From: an uncultured Bacteroidales bacterium
GTDB lineage: Bacteria > Bacteroidota > Bacteroidia > Bacteroidales > Bacteroidaceae
Direction: 5' to 3'
NCBI GenBank assembly: GCA_947303715.1
Contig: CAMYYY010000020.1
Coordinates: 1-46,182, forward strand
DNA length: 46,182 bases
The translations under genes and the position numbers were made by a program. The notes under the pieces were generated by a model. The model was not told the origin of the DNA. It searched no databases and saw only the letters and a program-made list of their open reading frames with translations. Shown one piece after another: positions 21,294 through 45,966 of the stretch; within the stretch, counting starts at the first letter, position 1, and each line of letters opens with the position of its first letter.

Positions 21294-21349
21294 CAAAGGT
21301 CGGGAATGGGGCGATAACACGCAAGTTTTTTGCGTGGCAAAAACGTGGC
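21294..21349 (-). promoter_or_regulatory. Cassette A promoter with paired GCCACG sites
   Basis: Minus strand: GACCTTTG (21294-21301) is the -7 box, ACTTG ends the -33 element 20 nt upstream, and two direct GCCACG hexamers lie at 21333-21338 and 21344-21349, 11 bp apart (one helical turn). The stretch from the hexamers to the -7 box is nearly the same as at 45911-45966, where both hexamers are GGGACG. Confidence 0.75.
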
Positions 21350-21378
21350 ATTTGCTGCCAAAAAGAATAAGTGGCTGG

Positions 21379-23055
21379 TTATGAAAAGAAAAGGAGATAC
21401 AGGTTTTCGGGCATTTTTTCCTTCAAACGGATTTTCCGCTTGCGCAAGGTGCCATCGGTGTTATTCAAAAGTTCTGCCATTTGGGCGGTTGAGCATTGGA
21501 GGGAGGAGAGGATGGAGTACATCAGCTCCTGATCGTTGACGGCATTCGAGGCGTTCTTCACGTCGAGCATGATATCGACAAACGAGCGGGTGAGGTCGTC
21601 CATGAGCGTCTGCCTCTGCGCGGCTGTCAGCGATGCAGGCGGCACCAGCAGCAGACGGGCCGAAGGTGTTCGGCGGAACAGGTTCTGACAGGCGGCGAGC
21701 TTTTTCCGATAGAGCGCGTCCAGGTCGGCAGGCTGTTCGTCCACCTGTGCCCGCAATACTTCCACATTGGCCTGCCGCAGTTCCTCCTGCGCCTGCAAGT
21801 AACGCTTCTTGCGCTTACGGTCGATGAGCAGGAAGGTGATAAAAAATGCCGATAGCAACAAGACAATAAAAATGCCCACCCCAAGTCGCAATCGCATATT
21901 GCGGGCTCTCATCTGCTGGTCATGAATCTCCACGATATGCTTATCCTTTATCTCGGTAATTTCCCGCTGCTTGTTCATCGTATAGATGGAATCCAAAAGA
22001 CTCTTATATTGATCGATGAAATAACGCGTAGAATCAGGCTTGTTCAGAAGCGGGGCCATGCTGGCAAGCCCTTCATACGACGTACATTGGACATAGACAT
22101 CGGAAGTGTTTCGTAGGGCTTTCATGTAGTATTCGTAAGCCGTTGCGGGCTGCTGCTGTTGGGCGAGAATGTCGGCTCTCAATGTCAGTAAGGCACTATT
22201 ATCTTCTCCGAAACGATTACCTATTTTTTCTAAATAGGCTAAGGCTCCCTCGATGTCGTGCTGATGATAAAACCGAAGTTTAGCTAACTGGAAATAAGTT
22301 GTGAAACGATTATAATTTGTAGTTTTCGTATTATTCAAGACACATTGGAACAAGCTGTCTGTTAATTCGTCATTATCATGATATAAGGCAATAGTCCCCA
22401 TGTAATAGTCGGCATAACTGATGTTTGCTGAATCGGAATTGCAGGATTCTGTCCGGCGGTAGCGTCCGAAAGCCACCCAGGCGCTATCCACCATATAGTG
22501 CTTGTAATATAGGAGTCCTAATTCAAACAGGCTGTTAGCAAAGTATTTGTTTGTGGTGTCGGGAAAGAGTGTAGTGGCGCGAAGCTGGGCCTCTATGGCA
22601 TCCAAGTCGCGATGTATGTCAAGATAAGTGCAGCCGAGATAGTGCTGAGCGAGGGCGGCATGTTGAGTTTTGCGCTTGGTGCCATAGTAGTTCGTAGCAA
22701 GAAGGATGAGGGAATCGGACGTAAGCGCAACATCGCACTTGTAGTCGGCCTGCGTCTTCAACAAAGCAAAAAGGGCGGCCTCCCCCTTAGAAAAGTGATC
22801 AGTGATTAGTGAACCGTGATCAGATGAATGTTCTCCATTCGATTGCTTCGGTATTATCTGTTCTCTGTTCACTGTTCTCTGTTCACTAAAAAGGCTGTCC
22901 AAGATTGCTCGTGCTTCCTGGGGGTCTGTTTCCATGAGGGCTTCGGCACGGAGCAGGGCATCGTGGAACGCGGCATGGCGGCACGACGAAAGACCGACTG
23001 CCACCATCAATAAGAGGGCCGTTTTCAGAAGGAGACTACGCTTACTTCTTTTCAT
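21379..23055 (-). CDS. Membrane TPR/HTH regulator A
   Basis: This 558-residue protein looks like a one-component transmembrane regulator. Residues 1-24 are a signal with lipobox-like VGLSSC. An extracytoplasmic TPR domain follows (FHDALLRAEALMETDPQEAR onward), then a single TM helix (GVGIFIVLLLSAFFITFLLI), a basic and coiled-coil stretch (DRKRKKRYLQAQEELRQANV) and a C-terminal HTH (LQCSTAQMAELLNNTDGTLR). Residues about 57-88 are an in-frame heptad insert. Regulator B (44202) has the same architecture and shares a 266-bp identical block. I start at ATG 23055, at the signal peptide and 19 nt below a promoter -7 box; the longer frame to 23127 crosses that promoter. The secreted hypothetical gene follows. 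Confidence 0.8.
   Translation of the reverse strand: MKRSKRSLLLKTALLLMVAVGLSSCRHAAFHDALLRAEALMETDPQEARAILDSLFSEQRTVNREQIIPKQSNGEHSSDHGSLITDHFSKGEAALFALLKTQADYKCDVALTSDSLILLATNYYGTKRKTQHAALAQHYLGCTYLDIHRDLDAIEAQLRATTLFPDTTNKYFANSLFELGLLYYKHYMVDSAWVAFGRYRRTESCNSDSANISYADYYMGTIALYHDNDELTDSLFQCVLNNTKTTNYNRFTTYFQLAKLRFYHQHDIEGALAYLEKIGNRFGEDNSALLTLRADILAQQQQPATAYEYYMKALRNTSDVYVQCTSYEGLASMAPLLNKPDSTRYFIDQYKSLLDSIYTMNKQREITEIKDKHIVEIHDQQMRARNMRLRLGVGIFIVLLLSAFFITFLLIDRKRKKRYLQAQEELRQANVEVLRAQVDEQPADLDALYRKKLAACQNLFRRTPSARLLLVPPASLTAAQRQTLMDDLTRSFVDIMLDVKNASNAVNDQELMYSILSSLQCSTAQMAELLNNTDGTLRKRKIRLKEKMPENLYLLFFS
22794..22887 (-). repeat. Facing heptad element inside regulator A
   Basis: In the gene sense, AGTGAAC/AGAGAAC units lie on one side and inverted GATCACT/AATCACT units on the other, around about 45 nt of unique sequence. 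It is in frame. Regulator B carries an unrelated heptad element at the same protein position. Confidence 0.8.
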
Positions 23056-23073
23056 ATCCTGGCTTTTTCCGTG

Positions 23074-23104
23074 CGAAGATACAACATACTGCGGAAAAAT
23101 GCAA
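23074..23104 (-). promoter_or_regulatory. Promoter of regulator A
   Basis: On the minus strand, TTG (23102-23104), a 20-nt gap, then TATCTTCG (23074-23081) fit the Bacteroidota promoter with one mismatch in the -7 box. It lies just above ATG 23055 and supports that start. Confidence 0.6.
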
Positions 23105-23183
23105 GCATACAGCCGTTTTTTTCTCACCAGCGCACCGAGGGAGGGGCTGGAACGGCATTGCGATGATGAAGCGCCACGCTGCG

Positions 23184-23211
23184 CCGAGTCGTGACGGACG
23201 AAGGCAAAGCC
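23184..23211 (+). repeat. Interspersed element, partial copy 4
   Basis: Only the right flank is clear: CGAGTCGTGACGGACGAAGG then CAAAGCC. The left flank and a core palindrome are not convincing. Confidence 0.55.
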
Positions 23212-23287
23212 AATTAATTATCCGAATTAAACTTTCTTTCATCGTATTATCTGACATCAGAATGACAAAATCAAGGAATACCGTTTT

Positions 23288-23455
23288 TTCATCGCGATGA
23301 AAAGAATTTATCATTGCAGTGAAAATAATTTTTCATCGCAGTGAAAACAATCTTTCATCGCAGTGAAAACAATCTTTCATCGCAGTGAAAATAATCTTTC
23401 ATTGCAGTGAAAAGAATCTTTCATTGCAATGAAAACTTCAAACCATTGCGATAAA
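23288..23455. repeat. 22-bp tandem array, eight units (14-bp palindrome + 8-bp spacer)
   Basis: Cores start at 23288, 23310, 23332, 23354, 23376, 23398, 23420 and 23442, an exact 22-bp period. The first (TTCATCGCGATGAA) and seventh (TTCATTGCAATGAA) cores are perfect palindromes; the central ones (TTCATCGCAGTGAA) have one mismatched pair. Spacers are AT-rich, for example AACAATCT. It lies upstream of the regulator A promoter and beyond the ispH stop. Confidence 0.9.
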
Positions 23456-23594
23456 AAATCCTATCCTTTGATTCCGCACAGAAAAAGAGCCTTTTACGCA
23501 TGGCAGAAAAAGCCTTTCTTCAGATGGAAAAAGGCCGCCACATTCAACACGGAAATCCTCGTCCGAAGGATGGTGGACTTACTCGCTTATGACA

Positions 23595-24455
23595 TCAAAA
23601 GGAAAGAGAGGAGATCTTCTCGCGGCAGGCCTCCATCAGCCAAGCGGGAGTGGAGGTGGCGCCGCAGATGCCTACCGAATGCACGGCGGGAGTGATAAGG
23701 GAGAGGTCAATCTGCGAGGCGTCCTCGACATGATGGGTGTTGGGGTTGGTCTCGCGGCAGGCCTCGAGGAGCACACGGCCGTTGCTGCTCTTGCGCCCAC
23801 ACACAAAGAAGACAAGGTCGTGCGAGGCAGCGAAGCGGCGGATGTTCTCCAGACGGTTGGCCACCTGACGACAGATGGTGTCGGAATAGCGGAACTCCAC
23901 GCCAGGCGCCATGCGCTGCTGGATGACCTCGACGAGGCGGCGGAACTCGGCAAGCGACTTGGTGGTCTGCGAGTAGAGGCGCACGGGGCGAGTGAAGTCG
24001 ATGCGGTCCAACTCGTCGATGCTCTCGATGACGATGGCCTCGCCGCCTGTCTGCCCCATGAGGCCAAGCACCTCGGCGTGGCCCTTCTGCCCGAAAATGA
24101 CAATCTGGGCGCCGTCGCCTGCCCGGGCATCACGGGCGATGCGCTTCTGGATGCTGAGCACCACGGGGCAGGTGGCATCGATGAGCTCGATGTTGTTGGC
24201 GCGGGCAATGGCGTAGGTCTCGGGCGGCTCACCATGGGCACGCAGCAGCACGCGCACGTCGCGCAGATGGCGGAACTGCTCGTGGTCGATGGCAATAAGC
24301 CCCAGCTGGCGCAGGCGTTCGCACTCTTCGCCGTTGTGGACGATGTCGCCCAGCGAATAGAGGGGCACGCCGCGACTCAGTTCTTCCTCGGCCTTGCGGA
24401 TGGCGGTGGTGACGCCGAAGCAGAATCCGCTTCCCTTGTCAATCTCAACGAGCAT
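23595..24455 (-). CDS. ispH: 4-hydroxy-3-methylbut-2-enyl diphosphate reductase
   Basis: IspH (LytB), 286 residues, carries out the last step of the MEP pathway, reducing HMBPP to IPP and DMAPP with a 4Fe-4S cluster. The three cluster cysteines are C12 (SGFCFGV), C96 (DATCPVV) and C195 (SDTIC). The LRAHGEPPE and GATSTP motifs are present, so it looks complete and active. It lies downstream of cmk and porQ on the minus strand, an order I know from other Bacteroidota. An array of GGGAGTAAAAGT repeats fills the cmk-ispH gap instead of a normal leader. Confidence 0.96.
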   Translation of the reverse strand: MLVEIDKGSGFCFGVTTAIRKAEEELSRGVPLYSLGDIVHNGEECERLRQLGLIAIDHEQFRHLRDVRVLLRAHGEPPETYAIARANNIELIDATCPVVLSIQKRIARDARAGDGAQIVIFGQKGHAEVLGLMGQTGGEAIVIESIDELDRIDFTRPVRLYSQTTKSLAEFRRLVEVIQQRMAPGVEFRYSDTICRQVANRLENIRRFAASHDLVFFVCGRKSSNGRVLLEACRETNPNTHHVEDASQIDLSLITPAVHSVGICGATSTPAWLMEACREKISSLSF

Positions 24456-24471
24456 AGAACCTTCTTTAAAT

Positions 24472-24540
24472 GGGAGTAAAAGTGGGAGTAAAAGTGGGAG
24501 TAGAAGTGGAAGTAAAAGTGGGAGTAAAAATGGAAGTAAA
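24472..24540 (+). repeat. 12-bp tandem repeat between cmk and ispH
   Basis: About six units of GGGAGTAAAAGT, slightly varied, fill almost the whole gap between the cmk stop (24543) and the ispH start (24455). Confidence 0.8.
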
Positions 24541-24542
24541 CC

Positions 24543-25235
24543 TTATTCATTTACTACGCGCAGGTACTGCTCCATGAGCCACTCGTTCTGCTGGGGGATG
24601 GTGAGGTTGCTGTTATCGAGCAGAATGGCATCGTCGGCCTGACGAAGGGGGCTGATTTCACGCGAGGAGTCGATACGGTCGCGCTCCTTGACGTTCTCCA
24701 GAATCTCGTCGAATGAGGCGGGCTGCCCCTTAGCCATCAGCTCGTCATAACGGCGCTGGGCACGTACCTCGGCGCTGGCGGTGACGAACACCTTCAGCTC
24801 AGCCTCGGGGAAAACGACGGTGCCGATGTCGCGCCCGTCCATGACAATGCCCTTCGCGCGGCCCATCTCCTGCTGCTGCGCTACCATAGCCTCGCGCACA
24901 AAGCCCACGGTGGCAATGGGGCTGACGTGCGACGACACCTCCATGCCGCGGATGAGGTTCTCGACGTACTCGCCGTTCAGATAAGTGTCAGGACGGCGCG
25001 TCTCCTCGTTGAAGCGGAACGTGATGTGAATGTTGGGCATGGCAGCCTCCAGCTCGTCGAGTTTGATGTTGCCGCAGGGATAGAAAAGGTCGTGCCGCAG
25101 GGCATAGAGGGTGACGGCGCGGTACATGGCGCCCGTGTCGATGTACGTGTAGCCAATCTTCGACGCAAGATCCTTGGCCATCGTGCTCTTGCCGCACGAC
25201 GAATGGCCGTCAATAGCAACAATGATTTTCTTCAT
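24543..25235 (-). CDS. cmk: Cytidylate kinase
   Basis: This 230-residue enzyme phosphorylates CMP and dCMP with ATP. It has the P-loop [15 protein letters not shown] at the N-terminus, the substrate-binding [12 protein letters not shown], the [12 protein letters not shown] motif, and the lid region [13 protein letters not shown]. Length and motifs are those of bacterial Cmk. It sits between porQ and ispH on the minus strand. The upstream gap is filled with AATTCCT heptads. Confidence 0.96.
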
Positions 25236-25254
25236 ATCTATATTTCTTAGTTAT

Positions 25255-25316
25255 TTTTTCTAATTCCTATTTCCTTTTTTCCAATTCCTAATTTCTAATT
25301 CCTAATTTTTTAATTC
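25255..25316 (+). repeat. AATTCCT heptads between porQ and cmk
   Basis: Tandem variants of AATTCCT (CTAATTC, CTATTTC and similar) fill the gap, all in one orientation. The same unit forms both arms of the terminator at 27167-27229. Confidence 0.65.
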
Positions 25317-26294
25317 TCATAGGGAATAGGAAAAGTTCATAGAAAGGGAGTTGGCAACGACGTTGTAGCGCCCGTAAGCCACGCCCACCTTGACACGGCT
25401 GACGTTGATGCCCGCGCCGAGGGAGAAGCCCGCCAACGAGCGTAAGCCCGAGGTAGAGGCAAGCTCGCGGTTGAGTTGCCCATTGAAGCCTACTGCCAGC
25501 CACGTTGTCTCAGTGGGGAACACATCGATGCCCACGATGAGATGGCGCAGCAGCAGCTCCTTCGTCGAGAGGCCCTCGGTACTGTAGAAGTCCTCAGCAC
25601 TCCAGTGGGTGAGGTTGGGTAGCGTCAGCGAGAAGCGCACAGGAGCGTGCGCCAGCCCTTTGCTGAAGCCCGCCACAAGGTTGAAAGGCAGCGGCTCGTG
25701 CGTGCCGTCATACGTCTTCACCTGCCCGCCCAGCTGGCGCGCCACGAGCGAGAAGCTGAAGTCCACATCGGGGTTGAAGTAGTTGAGGCCGAGGTCCACG
25801 CCCAGGGCGAGGGAATAGACGAGGTCGTAGTTGGAATAGATGAAACGCCCTGTGACGCCGCCCGACCACGCATCGCTGAGAGCGTAGCTGTAGGTTGCAG
25901 CCAGCGCCATGTCCTTTGCCGTAAAGGAGCCCGTGTCGGTACCCTCAACATCGGTACGACGCATGGAGCCGAAGCCCAGGTACTCAGCACCGAAAGCCAT
26001 TGCTGAACGGTCGGAAGGAGCGAAGTTGTACGTGGCTCCTGCCAGATTGCTTCCCGTCATATAGCTCATGTACTGCAGGCCCATCGTGCCAGGCGTCATG
26101 CCGATGAGCAATGCCGGATTGTGGAACGCCAGCGTGGGGTCGTCGTCATCGGCACTCACATTGTCGCCACCCAGCGCCGACGCATGGGCCGACACCGGCA
26201 GGCGCAGAAACTGGAAGGCCGAGCTGTTCTGCGCGGCGCCGCCCAACACGAAAAGGACGGACGCAAGGAGGAAAAAGTAACAACGTTTCATCAT
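25317..26294 (-). CDS. porQ: Type IX secretion system protein PorQ
   Basis: This 325-residue outer-membrane beta-barrel protein is predicted to have a signal peptide (CYFFLLASVLFVLGGAAQ). The N-terminal FLRLPVSAHASALGGDNVS and the DPTLAFHNPALL motif are typical of PorQ/PorV-like FadL-fold proteins, and strands continue to the C-terminal SMNFSYSL. In the type IX system PorQ acts with PorU, PorV and PorZ in cell-surface attachment of cargo. The gene precedes cmk and ispH. A second in-frame ATG at 26291 is equally possible as start. Confidence 0.88.
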   Translation of the reverse strand: MMKRCYFFLLASVLFVLGGAAQNSSAFQFLRLPVSAHASALGGDNVSADDDDPTLAFHNPALLIGMTPGTMGLQYMSYMTGSNLAGATYNFAPSDRSAMAFGAEYLGFGSMRRTDVEGTDTGSFTAKDMALAATYSYALSDAWSGGVTGRFIYSNYDLVYSLALGVDLGLNYFNPDVDFSFSLVARQLGGQVKTYDGTHEPLPFNLVAGFSKGLAHAPVRFSLTLPNLTHWSAEDFYSTEGLSTKELLLRHLIVGIDVFPTETTWLAVGFNGQLNRELASTSGLRSLAGFSLGAGINVSRVKVGVAYGRYNVVANSLSMNFSYSL

Positions 26295-26406
26295 ATTTCT
26301 CAGTTTTCGGCCGTAAAGATAGTGCTTTTTTATGCGAAAAAAACAAAAAACGCCCGAATTATGAAAAAAAAACCTTTTTAGTGTGCAACCAACGAAAAAA
26401 AAGTAT

Positions 26407-26414
26407 TACTTTTG
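26407..26414 (+). promoter_or_regulatory. -7 box for tonB
   Basis: TACTTTTG matches TAnnTTTG. The -33 element is weak. The box overlaps the upstream in-frame TTG, so the ATG at 26451 is the real start. Confidence 0.55.
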
Positions 26415-26450
26415 CCACAACGAAAATTAGCTAAAAAGAAAAATACAACT

Positions 26451-27140
26451 ATGGAAGTAAAAAAATCGAAAAGTGCCAATCTTGAAAACAAGAAGGGAAC
26501 ATGGATTCTGATGGGCCTTGTGGCCGTCTTCGCCCTCTTGTATGTGGCGTTCGAATGGACGCAGCATGAGAAGAAGTACGATGGCGACATCCTGGATGCC
26601 GGCGACATCGTGCTCGAAGAGGAAGTCATCCCCATCACGATGCCCGAAAAGAAGACCGTCCCCCCACCCCCACAGGCTGTCACGCAGGCTGAGGTGCTCA
26701 ACATCGTAGAAGACGATGCCGAAATCGAGGAAACCACCATCGCCTCTACCGACGACCAGGCAGAGTTCGTCGAAATCTCGGACGACGTGCCCATCGTAGT
26801 CGAAGAGCCCGAGGAGGAACAGCAGATCTTCCAGGTCGTAGAGAACATGCCTGAGTTCCCGGGCGGCACACAGGCGCTGCTGCAGTACCTGAAGAAGAAC
26901 ATCAAGTATCCCACCATCTGCCAGGAGCAGGGTATCCAGGGCCGCGTCGTCGTGCAGTTCGTCGTGAATAAGGACGGCTCCATCGTCGATCCCGAAGTCA
27001 TCAAGCCCATCAACCCCTATCTTGATAAGGAGGCCCTTCGCGTCGTCTCCACCATGCCGAAGTGGAAACCCGGTGAGCAGCGCGGCAAACCCGTTCGCGT
27101 GAAGTTCACGCTCCCCGTACAGTTCAAACTGAGCAACTAA
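26451..27140 (+). CDS. TonB-family energy transducer
   Basis: This 229-residue inner-membrane protein spans the periplasm and transmits energy to outer-membrane TonB-dependent transporters. A cytoplasmic start (MEVKKSKSANLENKKG) precedes one TM helix (TWILMGLVAVFALLYVAF). A proline- and acid-rich spacer with PPPPQ follows, then a C-terminal TonB domain of about 95 residues (ENMPEFPGGTQALLQYLKKN, IKYP, GRVVVQFVVNKDGSI, MPKWKPGEQRGKPV). That domain arrangement is usual for Bacteroidota TonB paralogues. A hairpin made of heptad repeats follows it. Confidence 0.9.
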   Translation: MEVKKSKSANLENKKGTWILMGLVAVFALLYVAFEWTQHEKKYDGDILDAGDIVLEEEVIPITMPEKKTVPPPPQAVTQAEVLNIVEDDAEIEETTIASTDDQAEFVEISDDVPIVVEEPEEEQQIFQVVENMPEFPGGTQALLQYLKKNIKYPTICQEQGIQGRVVVQFVVNKDGSIVDPEVIKPINPYLDKEALRVVSTMPKWKPGEQRGKPVRVKFTLPVQFKLSN

Positions 27141-27166
27141 GCCAACTGCATAAGTTAGAAATCTAG

Positions 27167-27229
27167 GAATTAGGAATTAGGAACTGACTCTGCGGCATGT
27201 AGCAAGTTCCTAATTCCTAATTCTTTTTT
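27167..27229 (+). terminator. Heptad-built terminator after tonB
   Basis: GAATTAGGAATTAGGAAC (27167-27184) pairs perfectly over 18 bp with 27206-27223, and TTTTTT follows (27224-27229). The arms are tandem AATTAGG heptads, so a repeat element here also forms a good intrinsic terminator. Confidence 0.75.
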
Positions 27230-27300
27230 CCACTTCAAACATTCCTCATTTCTATTTTTTCAATTTATAATTTATAATTCTTAATTCTATAATTCACAAA

Positions 27301-28284
27301 ATGTTTTCTCCCCAGCAACTGCTTCAGAAAGTCAACACACACCTCGACAGCCTCGGCTATCTGCACGAGCCCGAGAACCTCTACCAACCCGTGCGCTACG
27401 TCCTCTCGATGGGCGGTAAGCGCCTGCGCCCCGTGCTAATGCTGATGGCATACAACCTCTACCGCTCCGACGTCGATGCCATCCTCGATCCCGCCTGCGC
27501 CATCGAAATGTACCACAACTTCACCCTCCTGCACGACGACCTCATGGACCGTGCCGACGTACGACGCGGTAAGCCTACTGTGCATCGCCGCTGGAACGAC
27601 AATACAGCCATCCTCTCAGGCGACGTCATGCTCTCGCTCGCCATGAGCTACATGACGCACGTGGATGACACCCGCCTACGCCCCGTCATGGACACATTCA
27701 TCCGTGCTACCATCGAAATCGACGACGGACAGCAGTTGGACATGGACTTCGAACAACGCGACGATGTCACCCAAGCCGAGTACATCGAGATGATACGCTT
27801 GAAGACCAGCGTGCTGCTCGGCTGCAGTATGAAAATCGGCGCCCTGCTTGCCGGCGCATCTGACGACGATGCCGACAACCTCTACAAGACGGGTGAACAG
27901 ATGGGACTGGCCTTCCAGCTTCACGACGACTACCTCGACGTCTATGGCGACCCTGCCACTTTCGGCAAGAAGGTGGGCGGCGACATCCTCTGTAACAAGA
28001 AGACCTTCCTCTACGTCAAGGCCATGCAGCTTGCCGACGACCTGCAGCGCCGCGACCTGCAGCACTGGTTCGCGACGTCCGACCCCGACCCACTCTTCTC
28101 TGAGACAAAGATTGCTGCCGTCACCCGCATCTACACCGACCTCGACTTGCCCGTTATCTGCCGCACCCACGAGGACGAATTCTACCGTCTCGCGCACGCG
28201 CATCTGAATAAGGTATCTGTCCCTGACGAGGCAAAGAATGTCCTCCGTGCCTATCTGGCCTCGTTGATGGAGCGTACCGTCTGA
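27301..28284 (+). CDS. Polyprenyl diphosphate synthase (trans-isoprenyl)
   Basis: This 327-residue class I enzyme elongates allylic diphosphates with IPP, for menaquinone side chains or a similar product. It has the GGKRLRPVL motif, the first aspartate-rich motif HDDLMDRADVRRGKPTVHRR and the second, FQLHDDYLDVYGDPATFGKK. Chain length cannot be read reliably. It lies 13 nt before tatD. The ~160-nt region before it holds the tonB terminator and AT-rich spacer. Confidence 0.93.
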   Translation: MFSPQQLLQKVNTHLDSLGYLHEPENLYQPVRYVLSMGGKRLRPVLMLMAYNLYRSDVDAILDPACAIEMYHNFTLLHDDLMDRADVRRGKPTVHRRWNDNTAILSGDVMLSLAMSYMTHVDDTRLRPVMDTFIRATIEIDDGQQLDMDFEQRDDVTQAEYIEMIRLKTSVLLGCSMKIGALLAGASDDDADNLYKTGEQMGLAFQLHDDYLDVYGDPATFGKKVGGDILCNKKTFLYVKAMQLADDLQRRDLQHWFATSDPDPLFSETKIAAVTRIYTDLDLPVICRTHEDEFYRLAHAHLNKVSVPDEAKNVLRAYLASLMERTV

Positions 28285-28297
28285 GAGGATTCCACGC

Positions 28298-29128: not shown

Positions 29129-29173
29129 CATTTATCTTCAGCATAAAAAGGATATCCGCAACATATCGTTACG

Positions 29174-29216
29174 GACAAAAAACAAAAGAAGGGGATTCAT
29201 CACGAACTCCCTTCTT
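29174..29216 (-). terminator. Intrinsic terminator of tRNA-Asp
   Basis: The stem AAGAAGGG/CCCTTCTT (29186-29193 with 29209-29216) is followed on the minus strand by a T-rich run (TTGTTTTTTG). It begins four bases beyond the tRNA 3' end. Confidence 0.8.
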
Positions 29217-29219
29217 CTG

Positions 29220-38191: not shown

Positions 38192-38194
38192 CCC

Positions 38195-39124
38195 ATGCTA
38201 TTCCGCCGCCTAACCGCTGTTCTCCCCGCCCTGCTGCTGTTTGCCGCAGGGCTGATGGTGGCGTCCCCCGCCTCGTCGCAGGAGCTCGATGCCAAAGTCG
38301 TCATCAACGCATCGAAAATCCAGGGAACAGACAACTCCGTCTTCACTACGTTGGAGACGGCCATCAGCGAATTCCTCAACACGCGCAAATGGTCGAACGC
38401 CCAATACAGCAATAAGGAGAAAATCGCGTGCAGCTTCAACTTCATCGTTAACGAGTACGCCAACGAGGGAGCTTTCGATTGCGAGCTTATGGTGCAAAGC
38501 AACCGCCCCGTTTTCAACACCTCCTACAACACGGTTGTCTTCAACTTCCGCGACCCTGCCGTATCGTTCAACTACGTGGAATTCGACAAACTGGAGTTTG
38601 CCGACGATATCGTCACGAACAACCTGACTGCCGTGCTGGCCTACTACGCCTATCTCATTATCGGGCTCGACCTGGACACCTTTGCCCCCAAGGGTGGTAC
38701 GGACATCCTGCAGAAGGCCGAGAACGTCGTCAATAATGCGCAGATGCTCGATGTGGGTGGTTGGAAGGCCTACGCCGACGACAAGAACCGCCACGCCATC
38801 ATCAACGACTATATGAACGGCTCGATGGAACCCCTTCGCCAGTTGCTCTACGACTATCATCGTGGCGGATTGGACGAAATGGCACAGAACGCCGAGCGCG
38901 GACGAAGCAATATCACCACCTCCCTTGCCCTTCTGCAAAAGGCCAAGGAGAACAAGCCCCTGTCGGCCCTGCCCGGTCTATTCACCGAAATCAAACAGGA
39001 GGAGCTGCTCAACATCTACTCCAAGGGCACATCGAAGGAAAAAGAGGATGTGAGCAAAATCCTCACCAGCGTCAACCCTTCGCTCGCCAACGAGTGGGAG
39101 GAGATAAAGAAGATGAAGAACTGA
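38195..39124 (+). CDS. DUF4835 family secreted protein (PorD-like)
   Basis: This 309-residue exported protein has a signal peptide (LPALLLFAAGLMVASPASSQ). Features of DUF4835 are the start of the mature protein, ELDAKVVINASKIQGTDNSV with FTTLETAISEFLN, the ISFNFIV/ACSFNFIVNEY strand, RDPAVSFNYVEFDKLEFAD and YYAYLIIGLDLDTFAPKGGT. I recall that the family is also annotated PorD and linked to type IX secretion, which would fit porQ in this window, but I cannot confirm that here. The gene lies between the exonuclease and recN, where relatives often also carry coaBC; coaBC is absent. Confidence 0.82.
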   Translation: MLFRRLTAVLPALLLFAAGLMVASPASSQELDAKVVINASKIQGTDNSVFTTLETAISEFLNTRKWSNAQYSNKEKIACSFNFIVNEYANEGAFDCELMVQSNRPVFNTSYNTVVFNFRDPAVSFNYVEFDKLEFADDIVTNNLTAVLAYYAYLIIGLDLDTFAPKGGTDILQKAENVVNNAQMLDVGGWKAYADDKNRHAIINDYMNGSMEPLRQLLYDYHRGGLDEMAQNAERGRSNITTSLALLQKAKENKPLSALPGLFTEIKQEELLNIYSKGTSKEKEDVSKILTSVNPSLANEWEEIKKMKN

Positions 39125-39136
39125 CCCTTCTCCCCC

Positions 39137-40849
39137 ATGCTGACGTCGCTCTCCATACGGAACTACGCACTCATCGAGTCGCTTGAGATTGATTTCGAAA
39201 GCGGCTTTTCTGTTATCACAGGCGAGACCGGCGCCGGAAAATCCATCCTCCTTGGCGCCATCGGCCTGCTCTTGGGCAACCGAGCCGACAGCAGTACCGT
39301 CCGCGAAGGAGCGACAAAATGTACCATCGAGGGTTGTTTCGACCTGACGGCCTGCGACCTGCGACCCTTCTTCGACGAGAACGACATGGAGTACGACGAC
39401 GAGTGCATCATCCGCCGCGAACTCCTCTCCAGCGGCAAGAGCCGTGCCTTCGTCAACGATTCGCCTGCCTCCCTCAGCCAGCTGAAGGCGCTGGGCAGCA
39501 AGCTCATCGATATCCATTCGCAGCATCAGAACCTGCTGCTCAATTCCGAGAGTTTCCAGAGGGAAGTCCTCGACACGCTGGCGGCCAACGCAGCCGAGCG
39601 AGCCGCCTACCTCTCAGCCTATCAGGCTTTCGGCTCTGCCCAGCAGGCGCTCCGAAAAGCCGAGGCCGAACGGGAAAAGAATCGTGCCGACGAGGATTTC
39701 ATCCGTTTCCAGCTTCAGCAGTTCGACGAAGCCTGCCTGAAGGAGGGCGAGGACGAGGAACTGGAGGCCGAGCATAGCGTGCTGGAGCATGCCGAGGAGA
39801 TAAAGACCGACCTCTACGCTACCGTCGACCTGCTGACGGGCAACGAGAACAACCTTTTGGGCAACCTGAAAACCCACCTGAATACGCTCCGTAGTCTTGC
39901 AAGGAACTACGTCAAGGCTGCCGAATGGGTCGAGCGCATGGAGAGCACCTACATCGAACTGAAGGATATTGCCGAGGAGGTGGAGAGCGCTGCCGAGCGC
40001 ATTTCCTTCGACCCTGAGCGACTCACCGAGGTTGAGGAGCGGCTGAACCTTCTCTACACCCTCCAGCAGAAGCACCACGTGAAAGACCTGACAGCCCTGC
40101 TTGCCGTTGAAGCCGAACTGCGCGAGCGCATGGCCTCTATCGACAACAGCGACGACCGGATAGCCGAGCTTGCTCAAGCCCTTGCCCAAGCACAGGAAGC
40201 CCTTACCGCGACAGCAAAGGCGCTCACGGATTCACGCAAGAAAGCCGCCAAGACGGCCGAGAAGGGCATCATCGAACGCCTCCAAAGCCTGGGCATGCCC
40301 AACATCCGTTTCCAGATTGATGTTTCTCCTCGCACCACCCCCGACAGCAGCGGCATGGATGCCATCACCTTCCGCTTCTCCGCCAACAAAGGCACAGCCC
40401 TTCAGGACATCAGCGACGTGGCATCAGGCGGCGAAATCTCGCGCGTCATGCTCGCCATCAAGGCCTTGACAGCGGCTTCGCGCGGACTCCCCACCCTTAT
40501 CTTCGACGAGATTGATACGGGTATCTCCGGCCAGATTGCCGACCGCATGGGCAGCATCATGCAGGAGATGAGCGCACCAGGCCGCCAGATTATCAGCATC
40601 ACCCATCTGCCGCAAATAGCCGCCCGTGGAGCCGTCCACTACAAAGTCTGCAAGACGGAGACGGCCACAGGCACCCTTACAGCCATCAGCCGTCTGTCGG
40701 CCGACGAGCGCGTCAACGAGATTGCCTCCATGATTAGCGGCGCAACCCTTACCGAAGCCGCCATCGCCAACGCCCGCTCGCTACTGCAATTAAGTCAAAG
40801 TGCCGAAGAGACGAAAGGTCAAAAAGTTTTTCGCCCCTCAGACTCTTAA
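39137..40849 (+). CDS. recN: DNA repair protein RecN
   Basis: RecN, 570 residues, is an SMC-like ATPase that acts on double-strand breaks. It begins MLTSLSIRNYALIESLEIDF with Walker A GETGAGKSILLGA. Two coiled-coil arms (about 150-380) follow. The C-terminal half-ATPase has the signature DVASGGEISRVMLAI, Walker B LIFDEIDTGISGQIAD and the THLPQIAARG H-loop. Length is normal. The last residues (SQSAEETKGQKVFRPSDS) run into TTAGACC-type octads that fill the gap before rlmB. Confidence 0.96.
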   Translation: MLTSLSIRNYALIESLEIDFESGFSVITGETGAGKSILLGAIGLLLGNRADSSTVREGATKCTIEGCFDLTACDLRPFFDENDMEYDDECIIRRELLSSGKSRAFVNDSPASLSQLKALGSKLIDIHSQHQNLLLNSESFQREVLDTLAANAAERAAYLSAYQAFGSAQQALRKAEAEREKNRADEDFIRFQLQQFDEACLKEGEDEELEAEHSVLEHAEEIKTDLYATVDLLTGNENNLLGNLKTHLNTLRSLARNYVKAAEWVERMESTYIELKDIAEEVESAAERISFDPERLTEVEERLNLLYTLQQKHHVKDLTALLAVEAELRERMASIDNSDDRIAELAQALAQAQEALTATAKALTDSRKKAAKTAEKGIIERLQSLGMPNIRFQIDVSPRTTPDSSGMDAITFRFSANKGTALQDISDVASGGEISRVMLAIKALTAASRGLPTLIFDEIDTGISGQIADRMGSIMQEMSAPGRQIISITHLPQIAARGAVHYKVCKTETATGTLTAISRLSADERVNEIASMISGATLTEAAIANARSLLQLSQSAEETKGQKVFRPSDS

Positions 40850-40886
40850 TCCCTTCGACGCTTAGACCTTTTAGACACTTAGACCC

Positions 40887-41642
40887 ATGAATAAATCAGA
40901 CTTTATCTTTGGCATCCGCGCAGTCATCGAAGCCATTGAAGCCGGCAAGGACATCGACCGCGTACTGGTCAAAAGAGATATGCAAGGCGACCTCGCCCGA
41001 GAGTTGTTTGGCGCCCTGCGGGGAACGCAGATTCCCGTCCAGCGCGTGCCCGTCGAGAAGCTCAACCGCATCACCACCAAGAACCATCAGGGCGTAGTGG
41101 CATTCATCGCCTCCGTCACCTACCAGCACGTCGAGGACCTTGTCCCCACGCTGTTCGAGGAGGGGAAGACCCCGCTTTTCGTCATGCTCGATGGCGTGAC
41201 GGATGTGCGCAACTTCGGCGCCATCGCCCGCACGTGCGACTGCGCCTGTGCCGATGCCATCATCATCCCCACCCACGATAGCGTCAGCGCGGGAGCCGAT
41301 GCCATGAAGACCTCCGCCGGAGCACTCCACACGTTGCCCGTCTGCCGCGAGGCGAACCTTGCCACAGCCATAAAGTACCTGAAGCAATGCGGCTTCCGCA
41401 TCATCGGCGCTACGGAGAAGGGTAACCGCAACTATACCGAAGCCCACTATACCGACCCCGTCTGCCTCATCATGGGCGCCGAGGATACGGGCATCCCCAC
41501 AGAACACCTCGCCCTTTGCGACGACTGGGTAGCCATTCCCCAATACGGCCACATCGGCTCACTCAACGTCTCCGTTGCTGCCGGCATACTCATCTATGAA
41601 GCCGTCCGTCAACGGACGGAGGCTTTCTCCAAATCACTCTGA
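40887..41642 (+). CDS. rlmB: SPOUT rRNA 2'-O-methyltransferase, RlmB/TrmH family
   Basis: This 251-residue enzyme should methylate a ribose in 23S rRNA (G2251 in E. coli RlmB). It has the N-terminal substrate-binding domain (FIFGIRAVIEAIEAGKDIDR) and a SPOUT domain with motif 1 DGVTDVRNFGAIART, motif 2 IMGAEDTGIP and motif 3 IPQYGHIGSLNVSVAAGILI. It is the last of the dnaN-recN run. The exact target nucleotide is inferred from family resemblance. Confidence 0.92.
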   Translation: MNKSDFIFGIRAVIEAIEAGKDIDRVLVKRDMQGDLARELFGALRGTQIPVQRVPVEKLNRITTKNHQGVVAFIASVTYQHVEDLVPTLFEEGKTPLFVMLDGVTDVRNFGAIARTCDCACADAIIIPTHDSVSAGADAMKTSAGALHTLPVCREANLATAIKYLKQCGFRIIGATEKGNRNYTEAHYTDPVCLIMGAEDTGIPTEHLALCDDWVAIPQYGHIGSLNVSVAAGILIYEAVRQRTEAFSKSL

Positions 41643-41682
41643 CCTCTTTAATTAGTCAACGAGTCAACAAGTATTCTCCATT

Positions 41683-43410
41683 ATGCGAAGCATTAAATTA
41701 CTCATTCTTTCATTTTCATTCTTCTTTCTATTTCTCCTGCCCGTATCAGCCGCAGGCAAAATCAGCAAAACGCTCAAGAAAGCCCACGATGCCACTTGCT
41801 CCGTCATGACCTACGACGCTGACGGCAATCTCATCGGCACCGGCCAAGGCTTTTTCATTGGCGAGCGCGGCGAGCTGCTGGCTCCCTACACGCTGTTCCT
41901 CGGCGCGCGCTCGGCCGTAACTACCGATGCCGCAGGCACGACGCGCCAGGTACTGAAGGTCAAGGGAGCCGACGAGCTCTACGACGTCATCCGCCTCAGC
42001 GTCGAGACGGACAAGAAGCAGAAGTCACTTGCGGCCGACTCCATCGCGCTGAGCATTGGCCAACGGCTTTATATGCCCCCCGTCTCTACCGCCAGGAAAG
42101 AAGTCGGCGACTGGTTTACCGTCCGCAAGGTAGAGGATGTGAGCAACGGACACAGCTACTACACGCTGCTGGGCCCCTCTGCCTCAGCCAGTCTGGCGGG
42201 CCGCCCGCTGCTGACCGAGGAGGGCCAGCTGGCTGCCGTCATGCAGCCGTCGAGCGAGAGCGACACCCTCTTCTACGCCCTCGATGCCCGCTTCGGCACA
42301 AAACTTGAGATCAAGGCGCTGACGCTCAACGAGACCTCCTACCGCAACCTCGTCTTCCCGAAATCGTTGCCCGAGGATGCTGAGCAGGCGCAAGTCTATC
42401 TCTTCATCGCGGCAAGCCAGAACGATACGGATTACTATAGCGAAATCATCGAGAGCTTCATCAGTCAGTTCCCCGATAACGCCGAGGGCTACATCCGTCG
42501 GGCGGCGTTCCAGGTGGCCAAGGGCGATTCCATCCATCTTGAGCAAGCGGAGGCCGACCAGGCGAAGGCGCTTGAGCTCTCCCCTGACAAGGATGCCATC
42601 CACTACCAGATCGGCTGCCAGATGGTCGATGCCATAAGCAGCGACTCGGCCTTCCACTACAAGGACTGGACATTGGAACGTGCCGCCGCCGAGATGGAGC
42701 AGGCCATCGCCACCAACCCGCTGGCTATTTACTATCAGCATCTGGGCGACATCCGCCTCGCCCTTAACGACGACGAGGGTGCCGTGGAGGCCTACCTCGC
42801 CATCTGCCAGATGCCCGATGCCACCTCCGACAACTACTACAACGCCGCCATCGCCTGCGAACAGCTCCCCGACGGCTACGAGCGTGCCGTGGCCCTCATG
42901 GACAGCGCTGTCGTCAAGGCCTCGCCTGCCGGAGCCACGCCCGATGCCAATCTGGCGTACCAGAGCGCCCCGTTCGTCCTTGAGCGTGCGCTCATGAAAG
43001 CCCGCCACGAGAAGTACCGTCCTGCCGTTGCCGACTTCAACCTCTACGAGCAGCTGGCAGGCACCTCCGTCAACGACCGTTTCTACTACCTCCGCGAGCA
43101 GGCCGAAGCGAGTGCCCGCATGTTCCAGCAGGCACTCGACGACATCGACCTCGCCTACAGCATCAATCCGCTCGCAGCCTATCTGCTGGAGAAGGCCACG
43201 CTGAACATCCGCGTCGGCCGCAACGACGAGGCCCTGCCCATCTTGGAAAGTCTCATCGCCAGCTACCCCAACGACATGGACTGCAACCGTCTGCTGGGCT
43301 ACTGCTACGCCGTGAAGGGCGACACCCGTCGTGCCCGTCCGCTGCTGGAGCGCGCCATCAGCCTGGGCGATGCCACCGCCTCCACCCTCCTCGAACGCTA
43401 TTGCAAATGA
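41683..43410 (+). CDS. Secreted trypsin-like pseudoprotease with TPR repeats
   Basis: This 575-residue exported protein has a signal peptide (LLILSFSFFFLFLLPVSAAG). Residues about 30-210 follow the trypsin/HtrA-like pattern (GTGQGFFIGERGELLAPYTL), but the histidine expected in a TNYHV-type motif is replaced (APYTLF, about 67-72) and the serine site reads LAGRPLL where GSPLL is usual. D101 (LYDVIRL) could be the retained acid. It is thus probably a non-catalytic binding domain. Residues about 230-575 are TPR units ending VGRNDEALPILESLIASYPN and so on. It heads the group with the YiiX-like and TPR/HTH genes. GTCAACAA-type octads precede it. Confidence 0.82.
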   Translation: MRSIKLLILSFSFFFLFLLPVSAAGKISKTLKKAHDATCSVMTYDADGNLIGTGQGFFIGERGELLAPYTLFLGARSAVTTDAAGTTRQVLKVKGADELYDVIRLSVETDKKQKSLAADSIALSIGQRLYMPPVSTARKEVGDWFTVRKVEDVSNGHSYYTLLGPSASASLAGRPLLTEEGQLAAVMQPSSESDTLFYALDARFGTKLEIKALTLNETSYRNLVFPKSLPEDAEQAQVYLFIAASQNDTDYYSEIIESFISQFPDNAEGYIRRAAFQVAKGDSIHLEQAEADQAKALELSPDKDAIHYQIGCQMVDAISSDSAFHYKDWTLERAAAEMEQAIATNPLAIYYQHLGDIRLALNDDEGAVEAYLAICQMPDATSDNYYNAAIACEQLPDGYERAVALMDSAVVKASPAGATPDANLAYQSAPFVLERALMKARHEKYRPAVADFNLYEQLAGTSVNDRFYYLREQAEASARMFQQALDDIDLAYSINPLAAYLLEKATLNIRVGRNDEALPILESLIASYPNDMDCNRLLGYCYAVKGDTRRARPLLERAISLGDATASTLLERYCK

Positions 43411-43423
43411 GATGCTTCGCATA

Positions 43424-43516
43424 ATGAAAAATTAAAAAAGAAAAATGAAAAATAGTATGTACTCCTCTCGCAAGGCTATTTATTCTTCATTTTTCATTCT
43501 TCATTTTTCATTCTTA
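43424..43516 (+). repeat. Facing heptads around the YiiX-like start codon
   Basis: A-rich units (GAAAAAT/TAAAAAA, 43424-43453) face T-rich units CATTTTT and CATTCTT (43488-43516). The start codon lies in the left arm and the right arm encodes the signal-peptide core (SSFFILHFSFLLFF). Confidence 0.75.
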
Positions 43517-44200
43517 TTATTCTTCCTCAGTTGCGGCAGCCCCGCTCCTGAGCAGCCGAAGCTGGAGAACGGCGACCTACTCTTCACCCTCTCCGAAGCC
43601 GATGCCAGCACCCTCTCGGGCGCCATCGTCGGCGCTACCAGCCACGACAACCCTCTTATAGCAGGGGATGGCTCCGCCTTCCCCATCGACCACGTTGCCA
43701 TCGTCTGCACCCGCAACCATTATCTTCCCCCCTCCTTCAGGAGGGGACGGGGGAGGCTCTTCGTCTTGGAGGCTACCACCCGCCATGGCGTCCGCCTCTG
43801 CCCCCTCGACACCTTCCTCGTCCATGCCGACCATAATGCCGCAGGGCAGCCCCTCGTGATGGTAGGGCGCATCAAGGGCGACTTCGACTGCGACGCCTCG
43901 CTCCGTAACGCCATGTCCTACCTTGGCCGGCACTACGACGACGTCTATAGTCCTACCGACGACGACATCTATTGCTCCGAGCTGGTGCAGAAGTCCTACG
44001 TCGACCACGAAGGCCAGCTCATCTTCACGCCCGAGCCCATGTCGTTCCACGATGCCGACGGCAACATCCTCCCCTACTGGGCGGAGTTCTACGCCAGCCT
44101 CGGCCTCCCTGTGCCCGAAGGCGAGCCCGGCTCCAATCCCGTCGCCATCGCCACCCATCCCTCCGTCCAGATTATCGGCAGCTTCTTCACACCTGAATAA
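43445..44200 (+). CDS. YiiX-like permuted papain-fold lipoprotein
   Basis: This 251-residue lipoprotein belongs to the permuted NlpC/P60 (YiiX/YebB, DUF830) family, thiol amidases acting on peptidoglycan or lipids. A hydrophobic signal ends in the lipobox LSC (C30). ENGDLLFTL opens the domain, DHVAIV supplies H83, and DDDIYCSELV supplies C177, so the catalytic pair is present. Residues about 93-105 (YLPPSFRRGRGRL) come from a CCCCTCCT/AGGAGGGG element also found in the DPP4 gene. The signal core is encoded by heptads. Regulator B starts 1 nt after the stop codon. Confidence 0.85.
   Translation: MKNSMYSSRKAIYSSFFILHFSFLLFFLSCGSPAPEQPKLENGDLLFTLSEADASTLSGAIVGATSHDNPLIAGDGSAFPIDHVAIVCTRNHYLPPSFRRGRGRLFVLEATTRHGVRLCPLDTFLVHADHNAAGQPLVMVGRIKGDFDCDASLRNAMSYLGRHYDDVYSPTDDDIYCSELVQKSYVDHEGQLIFTPEPMSFHDADGNILPYWAEFYASLGLPVPEGEPGSNPVAIATHPSVQIIGSFFTPE
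43729..43758 (+). repeat. CCTCC palindromic element inside the YiiX-like gene
   Basis: CCCCTCCTTCAGGAGGGG then ACGGGGGAGGCT match the DPP4 insert (sense strand) with one mismatch by eye. It is translated PPSFRRGRGR, a different frame from the DPP4 copy. Confidence 0.75.
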
Positions 44201-44201
44201 T

Positions 44202-45881
44202 ATGAATCGCCCTCGCCACCTATACCCCATCGTTCTATTCCTGCTCCTTTTGCTGACAGCCTCCGTCACCTCCTGCCGCAGGGATGCCGCTTTTCACGAT
44301 GCCCTGCTTCGTGCCGAAGCCCTCATGGAGACAGACCCCCAGCAAGCACGCGCGGTGCTTGCTGAGATTGAAGATTCAATATTGAAGATTGAAGATTATC
44401 CTGCGGAAGAGGCAGGCCAGAAGGCGAGAAAAAATTTTCAATCTTCAATCTTCAATTTTCAATCTAAGTCGGAGGCCGCTCTTTACGCCCTCCTTCGCAC
44501 CCAGGCTGACTACAAATGCCGTGTCCGGCTTACTTCCGATTCCCTCCCCCTTATCGCTACGAACTATTACGGCACCAAGCGCAAAACCCAACATGCCGCC
44601 CTCGCCCAGTACTATCTTGGCTGCACCTATAAAGATATGCGCCGCGACCTTGACGCCATCGATGCCCTCCTTCGTGCTACAACCCTTTTCCCAGATACAA
44701 CAAACAAATATTATGCGTATAGTTTGTTTGAGTTGGGTAAGGAGTATCTAAAGAATCACATGAATGAGAATGCCATAGCTGCATTTAAGCGTTATCGAGT
44801 CTCAAATATATGTAATTCTGACTCATTAAATATTTCCTATGCAGATTACTATTTAGGGGAATCGGCAATGTACATTGGTGATGATTTATTAGCTGATAGT
44901 CTATATAAATGTGTTATTCAAAACACAAAAACACAGGAAAGTGTTCGATACGACTCTTATTATGAATTAGCAAAGTTATATTATTATCATTGGCATGATA
45001 GTAAAAAAGCTGCCACCTTTCTCGATGATTATTTGGTTTTTTTCGATAATGAAAAAGGAAAAGGGGCATCATTGTTACTAAAAGCAGAAATTCTTTTTGA
45101 ACAAAAAGATTTATATTCAGCTCTCACCTTTTACAAGAAAGCACTTGAAAACAGTAATGATTTATATACAAATTGTATGGCAAATAAGGGCTTGGCAAAT
45201 GTCATGTCCTTGTTGAATAAACCAGATTCAACGCAGTATTGCATCAATCAATATACACTTTTGCTGGATTCCATTTACTCCATAAACAAGCAAATGGAGA
45301 TTACAGAAATACAAGACAAACATATCGTAGAAGTTCACGACCAGCAGTTGAAAGCGCGGCATGCGCGGTTTATGTTCTGGATGGGGATTTTGGCTGTTGT
45401 GCTCCTTTCAGGGACGGCCATCACCTTTCTGCTTATCGACCGTAAGCGCAAGAAGCGTTACTTGCAGGCGCAGGAGGAACTGCGGCAGGCCAATGTGGAA
45501 GTATTGCGGGCACAGGTGGACGAACAGCCTGCCGACCTGGACGCGCTCTATCGGAAAAAGCTCGCCGCCTGTCAGAACCTGTTCCGCCGAACACCTTCGG
45601 CCCGTCTGCTGCTGGTGCCGCCTGCATCGCTGACAGCCGCGCAGAGGCAGACGCTCATGGACGACCTCACCCGCTCGTTTGTCGATATCATGCTCGACGT
45701 AAAGAACGCCTCGAATGCCGTCAACGACCAGGAGCTGATGTACTGCATCCTCTCCTCCCTCCAATGCTCAACCGCCCAAATGGCGGAACTTTTGAATACC
45801 ACAGAATCTACTTTGCGCTCTCGGAAAGCCCGTTTGAAGGAAAAAATGCCTGACAACCTCCATTCGCTTTTCCTTTCATAA
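44202..45881 (+). CDS. Membrane TPR/HTH regulator B
   Basis: This 559-residue paralogue of regulator A has a signal peptide with lipobox-like VTSC (about residue 25). An extracytoplasmic TPR domain follows, then a TM helix near 389-410 (WMGILAVVLLSGTAITFLLI), a linker (DRKRKKRYLQAQEELRQANV) and a C-terminal HTH (LQCSTAQMAELLNTTESTLR). The N-terminal ~55 residues after the signal and the C-terminal part match A closely. The middle (44700-45380) is visibly AT-rich and much diverged, so the gene is a mosaic. Residues about 55-88 are an in-frame heptad element. The start follows the YiiX stop; the open frame further up is a shadow of that gene. The likely target is the lipoprotein at 45993. Confidence 0.82.
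   Translation: MNRPRHLYPIVLFLLLLLTASVTSCRRDAAFHDALLRAEALMETDPQQARAVLAEIEDSILKIEDYPAEEAGQKARKNFQSSIFNFQSKSEAALYALLRTQADYKCRVRLTSDSLPLIATNYYGTKRKTQHAALAQYYLGCTYKDMRRDLDAIDALLRATTLFPDTTNKYYAYSLFELGKEYLKNHMNENAIAAFKRYRVSNICNSDSLNISYADYYLGESAMYIGDDLLADSLYKCVIQNTKTQESVRYDSYYELAKLYYYHWHDSKKAATFLDDYLVFFDNEKGKGASLLLKAEILFEQKDLYSALTFYKKALENSNDLYTNCMANKGLANVMSLLNKPDSTQYCINQYTLLLDSIYSINKQMEITEIQDKHIVEVHDQQLKARHARFMFWMGILAVVLLSGTAITFLLIDRKRKKRYLQAQEELRQANVEVLRAQVDEQPADLDALYRKKLAACQNLFRRTPSARLLLVPPASLTAAQRQTLMDDLTRSFVDIMLDVKNASNAVNDQELMYCILSSLQCSTAQMAELLNTTESTLRSRKARLKEKMPDNLHSLFLS
44365..44465 (+). repeat. Facing heptad element inside regulator B
   Basis: TTGAAGA-type units and their inverse face each other around about 42 nt; ATTGAAGATTGAAGATT (44381-44397) pairs perfectly with 44440-44456. 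It is in frame and at the same protein position as the unrelated insert in regulator A. Confidence 0.85.
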
Positions 45882-45910
45882 TCATTTACTTATTTCGCCC
45901 CAATAAAAAT

Positions 45911-45966
45911 GGGACGTTTTTGGGACGCAAAAAATTTGCATGTTTTCGCCCCATTCCCGACCTTTG
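45911..45966 (+). promoter_or_regulatory. Cassette B promoter with paired GGGACG sites
   Basis: Two direct GGGACG hexamers (45911-45916, 45922-45927) lie 11 bp apart, then TTTG (45935-45938), a 20-nt gap and GACCTTTG (45959-45966). The layout and most bases equal the cassette A promoter, where both hexamers are GCCACG. The placement suggests an activator bound just upstream of -33. Confidence 0.75.

Follow-up and report, generated by a model that had tools for sequence, protein, structure and literature searches.

The window analysed here, a stretch of 46,182 nucleotides (nt), is contig C20 of a 3.03 Mb genome in 91 contigs from an uncultured Bacteroidales bacterium, whose named near relatives are metagenome-assembled genomes titled Bacteroidaceae bacterium (some of them from the rumen) and Bacteroidales bacterium UBA1189. 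It carries two cassettes, A on the minus strand and B on the plus strand, in each of which the gene of a putative membrane-spanning regulator is followed by a short sequence repeated in tandem, hereafter the tag, by a promoter and by a gene with a secreted- or lipoprotein-type start, the putative target. The coordinates and letters given for both cassettes in the preliminary description of this DNA proved correct when the sequence was read again.

Regulator A (21379..23055, minus strand; 558 amino acids) is predicted to comprise a lipoprotein-type signal sequence, tetratricopeptide repeat (TPR)-like repeats, a transmembrane (TM) helix and a C-terminal helix-turn-helix (HTH) domain, an architecture taken from the AlphaFold2 model of its paralogue, regulator B (44202..45881, plus strand; 559 amino acids), which shares it. 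The predicted TM helix of A (21820..21890, minus strand) is followed by the residues DRKRKKR and, by the positive-inside rule, the HTH domain would be cytoplasmic. When the predicted recognition helix is numbered so that the x in RK-x-R is residue 0, that of A (DGTLRKRKIRLKEK; 21415..21456, minus strand) carries R at -4, K at -3 and I at 0, and that of B (ESTLRSRKARLKEK; 45804..45845, plus strand) R at -4, S at -3 and A at 0. The former corresponds to helix 101-114 in the C-terminal domain model of B, and the latter is helix 535-548 in the model of B.

In cassette A, the tag TGCCACG-TTTT-TGCCACG (21333..21350, minus strand; period 11) precedes a promoter read from the sequence as a TTGC at -33 (21321..21324, minus strand) and a TTTG at -7 (21294..21297, minus strand), element names that come from Bacteroides work; the proximal tag copy starts 42 nt 5′ of this TTTG. 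Target A (20409..21257, minus strand) is a secreted-type protein of 282 amino acids with no Pfam family above cut-off. Cassette B presents the same layout on the plus strand, with the tag TGGGACG-TTTT-TGGGACG (45910..45927; period 11), a TTG at -33 (45936..45938) and a TTTG at -7 (45963..45966), both read from the sequence and the latter again 42 nt 3′ of the proximal copy's start, and then target B (45975..46182), which has a lipoprotein-type start, a possible second start at 45993, and is cut by the contig end. The direct repeats 11 bp apart that had been described are present in both promoters, and the unit, first given as a hexamer, is better given as the 7-mer TGNNNNN.

The two C-termini had also been described as nearly alike except in the predicted recognition helix, and indeed the 125-residue domains are 92% identical. 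At the DNA level, counting from the end of the TM stretch, the first 263 nt are identical and 4 of the 360 positions before the helix differ, against 12 differences in the 32 positions that start at the helix, so that the change clusters in the predicted recognition helix. At the sequence level this pattern fits exchange through a homogenised linker together with selection, or retention, of the difference at putative reading positions. In a set of 36 proteins comprising B and its close homologues, variability within the domain is highest at column 0, with column -3 in eighth place, and columns -5, -4, -2, -1, +1, +3 and +4 are invariant.

Predicted membrane-spanning regulators

The genome encodes more than a dozen paralogues of this TPR-TM-HTH regulator. 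Public homologues amount to 229 proteins and, among the 120 matches listed, the few named ones are hypothetical or TPR repeat proteins. A hydrophobic 19-mer lies 90-260 residues before the end in 142 of the 143 regulators with an open frame of at least 500 amino acids, and 71 of these 143 present a lipobox-like motif near the start, as judged by a loose pattern. Neither A nor B matches any Pfam family above its curated cut-off; TPR matches are weak, and the C-terminus of B gives weak Xre-like and sigma-region-4 matches. The identity as a sigma factor was rejected, since the sigma-region-4 match is below cut-off in B, as was membership of DUF6377 (PF19904), with 12.3 and 12.2 bits against a curated cut-off of 36.7. 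Furthermore, GerE (PF00196) has no match up to E 1 in A or B, and no histidine kinase, receiver or AraC-type HTH appears among their Pfam matches.

In the AlphaFold2 model of B, built on 29 aligned sequences (mean predicted local distance difference test score, pLDDT, 87.2; predicted template modelling score, pTM, 0.61), helical repeats at 46-337 are followed by a long helix at 341-440, within which the hydrophobic stretch falls, and by a C-terminal domain that is also helical. When this domain is modelled alone, the mean pLDDT is 89.8 and helix 101-114 holds the variable residues. Altogether, sequence and models predict A and B to be membrane-spanning one-component regulators, in which a single chain carries the sensor, the TM helix and the DNA-binding domain. 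No description of this regulator family, and no mention of DUF6377, was found in the open-licence texts of PubMed Central (PMC), a scope outside which most subscription papers fall. In three loci of genus g25 (L116, L117 and L177), the related HTH domain is not C-terminal and more than 200 further residues come after it.

Tandem tags downstream of the regulator genes

The 302 loci gathered correspond to 257 non-redundant regulators, of which 241 end in an HTH domain and come with 120 nt or more of downstream DNA; genera were assigned by hand from locus numbers. The usual tag is a tandem direct repeat of TGNNNNN, mostly with an 11 bp period, located 5′ of a -33/-7-type promoter. With letters and promoter left unconstrained, 66 of the 241 downstream stretches contain an exact 7-mer repeat at lag 11, versus 6.3 in shuffles, and in 59 of these 66 the repeat starts with TG. 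Smaller peaks appear at lag 22 (21 versus 5.8 in shuffles) and lag 12 (20 versus 4.2), and repeats at lags 30, 31 and 33 reach about twice the background.

A site rule based on DNA alone requires TG in at least one copy, at least six of seven letters equal and a TTTG at the right distance, and gives bonus points for lag 11, for 41-43 nt and for a TTG. It calls sites for 91 of the 241 regulators, where 0.7 would be expected by shuffling, none in the 241 reverse complements, and one in 629 windows elsewhere in the loci. By genus, calls were made for 77 of 131 regulators of the own genus and 14 of 110 of other genera. The proximal copy lies 42 or 43 nt from the TTTG in 80 of the 91 calls, a distance favoured by the rule's bonus for 41-43 nt. 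Unequal half-sites had been named beforehand as a finding that would speak against divergence of operator specificity: the two copies are unequal in 24 of the 91 called sites, in one of seven letters, and identical at all seven in the other 67.

In the own genome, tags were called for 11 of the 14 paralogues with downstream DNA and differ between most of them: TGCCACG, TGGGACG, TGTAAGG, TGTTAGA, TGTCCCG, TGAGATA, TGTGAGG, TGTCACG, TGCAGCG and TGAAACG, the last being the tag of two regulators with near-identical HTH domains. As a search pattern, TGSSACG twice was dropped, with no enrichment over its reversed control (3 versus 4 matches), and the TTTT-spaced pattern TGNNNCGTTTTTGNNNCG was used for that reason. 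The latter has seven matches in the own genome and none for the reversed control; NNN is identical between copies in all seven, and in all seven the proximal copy lies 42 or 43 nt from a TTTG, here with no distance bonus. Across 13 own-genus genomes there are 24 matches, with identical NNN in 20, and a control total of 7. TGTCACG-type matches in other orders (L313, L315) were set aside, the promoter not being at the right distance.

Some tags depart from the usual layout. In the TGAAACG group (L012, L013, L047, L048, L067), the proximal copy is 33 nt from the TTTG instead of 42, which places the tag about one helical turn closer to it, over the -33 region. In another small group (L169, L171, L173; downstream positions 20-110), the distal copy, as judged by eye, forms one arm of a terminator-like hairpin, and some 30 nt later comes the second copy.

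Covariation of tag bases with the recognition helix

Covariation between helix residues and repeat bases, the test proposed in the preliminary description, was scored on 58 dereplicated regulator-site pairs, which form 31 clusters when the sequence outside the helix is grouped at 50% identity. Scoring was restricted to columns with at least 30 letters, and a site whose copies are discordant at a given base did not count for that base. When columns are ranked by excess mutual information, residue -3 for base 4 and residue -4 for base 7 lead all scored columns. Base 4 shares 1.31 bits with residue -3, an excess of 0.90 versus 0.47 for the next column (z 11.2). K at -3 goes with C4 in 14 of 14 pairs, spanning 10 clusters, and Q in 4 of 4, together 18 of 18 across 11 clusters. 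M goes with T4 in 5 of 6 pairs (2 clusters), V, G and A with A4 in 5 of 5, and S and T with A or G at base 4 in 19 of 20. At base 7, G is found in 20 of 24 pairs with R at -4 versus 3 of 24 with other residues. Moreover, in disjoint nearest pairs, K or Q and C4 change together in 17 cases, with none discordant and one showing neither; for R at -4 and G7 the corresponding figures are 18, 1 and 5.

When each cluster is held out in turn, base 4 is predicted from residue -3 with 0.74 correct versus a 0.46 baseline, the first rank among 99 columns. Site identity between distant regulators is 0.27, 0.40, 0.54 and 0.51 when they share 0, 1, 2 and 3 helix residues, a trend equalled in 0 of 500 permutations and 0 of 300 random non-helix column sets, the best of the latter coming close to the helix (0.340 versus 0.354). 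Within the own genome, with that genome and the close relatives of each tested regulator excluded from training, the true pairing of 10 regulators with 10 sites was equalled in 36 of 20,000 permutations. Overall, a clear rule emerges for base 4 and a good one for base 7, those for the remaining bases being weak. The covariation supports, at the level of sequence, the proposed divergence of operator specificity between paralogues. Independent variation of repeat and helix, which had been named as contrary evidence, is not seen as a rule, and exceptions exist.

Column 0 had been considered as a reader of base 3 from the comparison of A with L029, and was rejected because it is not among the best columns family-wide. 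In three regulators of other genera with Y at -4 and K at -3 (L124, L128, L134), GGTCAGAC stands before the promoter, by eye and with no close tandem copy; in L124 it is about 43 nt from the TTTG, with C4 and AGA as the code would suggest.

A number of observations weigh against a reading of the tag by the helix. In the held-out prediction, helix columns are not singled out for bases 3, 5, 6 and 7, and residue -4 ranks 17th of 99 for base 7. Columns -24, -25 and -55, outside the helix, likewise score for bases 6 and 7, a sign that shared descent still plays some part, and in raw mutual information with base 7 column -25 (1.07) is slightly over -4 (1.03). In the own-genome test only 2 of 10 regulators receive their true site in the best assignment, the contact columns were chosen after seeing all data, the called regulator L013, which has the same tag as L012, was omitted, and the best of 40 random column sets reaches z 2.72 versus 2.99. 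Exceptions to the code are L204 (T at -3 with C4), L192 (M with A4), L038 (R at -4 without G7) and, by eye and outside the 58 pairs, L173 (M at -3 with TGTGACG). L169 (TGAGAAA, helix YRTRK) takes part in both distant pairs that share all four helix residues, where site identity is 0.0; it was kept in all counts. By eye, its downstream DNA holds an earlier copy, TGTAACG, that fits the code, and L049 in the same genome has almost the same TGAGAAA promoter. The sites set aside for discordant copies number 2 at base 4 and 10 at base 7; six of the latter have R at -4, and one of these six, L119 (TGTCACC/TGTCACT), lacks G7 in both copies.

The same holds for coverage and fold. No site could be called for 150 of the 241 regulators (54 of 131 in the own genus, 96 of 110 in others), nor by the rule for 3 of the 14 own-genome paralogues (L004, L007, L016), and 4 of the 15 pattern loci examined (L309, L312, L313, L315) have no TTTG at 38-48 nt. 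The fold matches of the C-terminal domain include many NarL/LuxR-type DNA-binding domains at modest scores, with which other HTHs, among them archaeal ones, tie, and in a profile search unrelated proteins match the domain as well or better (a colony-stimulating factor at E 0.07).

Exchangeable parts, proposed mechanism and alternatives

Sensors, readers and targets occur in differing combinations, and reader and tag stay matched. The TPR region of A shares 92% with proteins bearing the helix of B and only 55% with B itself (34 proteins compared), and 13 of 78 same-helix pairs have a TPR identity of at most 55%. Conversely, P0008 and P0012 are alike in the TPR region (1.00 after rounding) and differ in their helices, residue -3 included. 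The tags recur with other flanks as well. A regulator's own tag is found upstream of its gene in 11 of the 56 cases with enough upstream DNA, versus 29 of 647 for the tags of other regulators, and 3 of these 11 autoregulatory copies are weak and inside coding sequence. In L011, TGTCACG occurs in the regulator's own promoter, in that of its neighbour and before a third gene on the contig. The TGGGACG tag of B recurs elsewhere in the genome (G000:C2:109639-109656, locus L303) before a gene of outer-membrane or secreted type with no regulator in 1.5 kb on either side.

Targets, in turn, change hands. Judged by their starts, they are mostly secreted-type or outer-membrane proteins. In a single-linkage group of 34 of them, in which fusions link DUF3244 proteins to leucine-rich-repeat proteins, the members are preceded by 17 half-site labels (about 14 with N-containing labels merged). 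Relatives of target A are found behind TGGGACG (L071) and TGAGATA (L076). The L003 gene, TGGGACG-promoted in L059, has kept a similar promoter core in which the TGGGACG copies are gone, and a TGTAAG promoter, matching its own regulator, is placed upstream; we read this as a change of control. DUF3244 (PF11589) is above its curated cut-off in 6 of 10 targets hand-chosen from relatives and below it in one more, with no match in target A or in the available part of target B. Among the open-licence PMC texts, two papers mention DUF3244. DUF3244 genes also figure in tables of PMC10434189, whose accessible text sections draw no link to such a regulator. Since the tag recurs with other flanks, the parts are shuffled and the targets change hands, the match of tag and helix is probably not just that of neighbours inherited together.

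The divergence between A and B pointed out in the preliminary description is confirmed, and it is the tip of a family-wide pattern, one that, in its sequence features, is what coevolving operator specificity predicts. We consider it likely, with a probability of roughly 0.82, that A and B, as members of a large family, each bind a doubled seven-letter tag and switch on their own target, the letters of the tag tracking residues -3 and -4. The TPR domain would lie in the periplasm, a placement drawn from the N-terminal signal sequence and the basic residues after the TM helix, and would sense something in the envelope. The signal would pass through the TM helix to the cytoplasmic HTH; two such domains would occupy the tandem copies next to each other, a helical turn apart, and from there assist RNA polymerase at the -33 element nearby. 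The base pair at tag position 4 (C) would be recognised by residue -3 (K or Q), and the G at position 7 by residue -4 (R). Joint change of reader and tag would keep paralogues insulated, sensors and targets would be exchanged by recombination, and targets may feed back on the sensor.

Activation rather than repression is proposed because the tag is mostly upstream of the core promoter. The tags could nonetheless be operators of these same regulators that act repressively, RNA polymerase being blocked near -33 until an envelope signal releases the regulators. The closeness of the tags to the -33 element, their presence in some regulators' own promoters and the six of 91 calls in which the proximal copy, 32-33 nt before the TTTG, lies over the -33 region would agree with this. 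In the 80 calls at 42-43 nt, however, the tag ends upstream of -33 and leaves the core promoter free, the usual place of an activator, and we regard repression as unlikely. It is more doubtful still that the tags bind another factor or are promoter parts, the match with the helix arising only because adjoining stretches of DNA descend together. In favour of this, a regulator gene and its tag mostly lie next to each other, related pairs are co-inherited, and bases 6 and 7 correlate with some columns outside the helix as well; yet residue -3 alone predicts base 4 in held-out clusters at the first rank of 99, K/C4 is seen in 10 clusters and M/T4 in 2, the same tag stands with other flanks in the regulator's own promoter, and helix and tag are matched while targets and sensors differ. 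The idea that the repeats serve to terminate transcription, or act as RNA elements belonging to the regulator gene, draws on the hairpin of L169, L171 and L173, which by eye is followed by T residues. It is highly improbable and was rejected, since the typical tag is a direct, not an inverted, repeat next to a promoter, and it also precedes the L303 gene, with no regulator upstream within 1.5 kb.

A broader proposal can be made, which we hold at slightly better than even odds: the genus would run expandable, insulated membrane-to-promoter channels built from three exchangeable parts, namely the sensor, the reader with its tag and the secreted output. Recombination in homogenised linkers would swap sensors and outputs, and a two-residue code would keep the reader on its tag. 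If true, this would provide a natural library for reading and testing the DNA-recognition code of this HTH class. Paralogue insulation and moves to new operators are usually studied with few hand-picked pairs. Here, one genus offers dozens of natural regulator-tag pairs in one geometry, some differing in little beyond helix and tag, which makes the recognition code directly testable. Who would control what becomes partly readable from the sequence, which would aid in assigning regulators to targets in Bacteroidota genomes.

Several known systems invite comparison. Unlike NarL/LuxR (GerE-type) and sigma-region-4 HTHs, the present family has no Pfam GerE match, an HTH predicted to be joined through a TM helix to a TPR domain, and tandem direct repeats of period 11. 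It resembles the ToxR/CadC type in that one chain is predicted to join an extracytoplasmic sensor, through a single TM helix, to a DNA-binding domain in the cytoplasm, with no kinase or receiver domain found; however, ToxR and CadC have an N-terminal winged helix, whereas here the TPR-like sensor is N-terminal and the HTH C-terminal. The hybrid two-component and SusR-type regulators of Bacteroides are membrane sensors encoded beside envelope-protein targets, and so they share with this family membrane sensors of Bacteroidota adjoining such targets; in contrast, A and B have no histidine kinase, receiver or AraC-type HTH matches. In the Prot-DNA-Korr analysis of the MerR family (PMC5045206), specificity contacts are marked by mutual information between protein and operator columns; the regulators treated there are known ones, from five subfamilies that are closely related and have solved complexes. 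The same measure is used here, whereas our family has many paralogues per genome and is known from sequence and models.

Finally, repeat elements of other kinds accompany these genes. In-frame repeats lie early in the regulator genes, of a gtgaacag type in A (22800-22900, minus strand) and of a gaagattgaagatt type at the same gene place in B (44370-44470, plus strand), and similar elements occur at several other loci, within and between genes (L018, L021, L024, L025). They probably explain several short genome matches to regulator A, which has 25 matches in the own genome, several of them only to an in-gene repeat. A TTCAGGCGGATTTGCAATCCG-type repeat interrupts or follows target gene starts (the downstream genes of L006 and L009; L029, L171). 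A third near-identical paralogue, L005, is cut at a contig end (G000:C16, 51509), just within the stretch over which A and B are identical, and the assembly probably breaks at the repeat common to the three.

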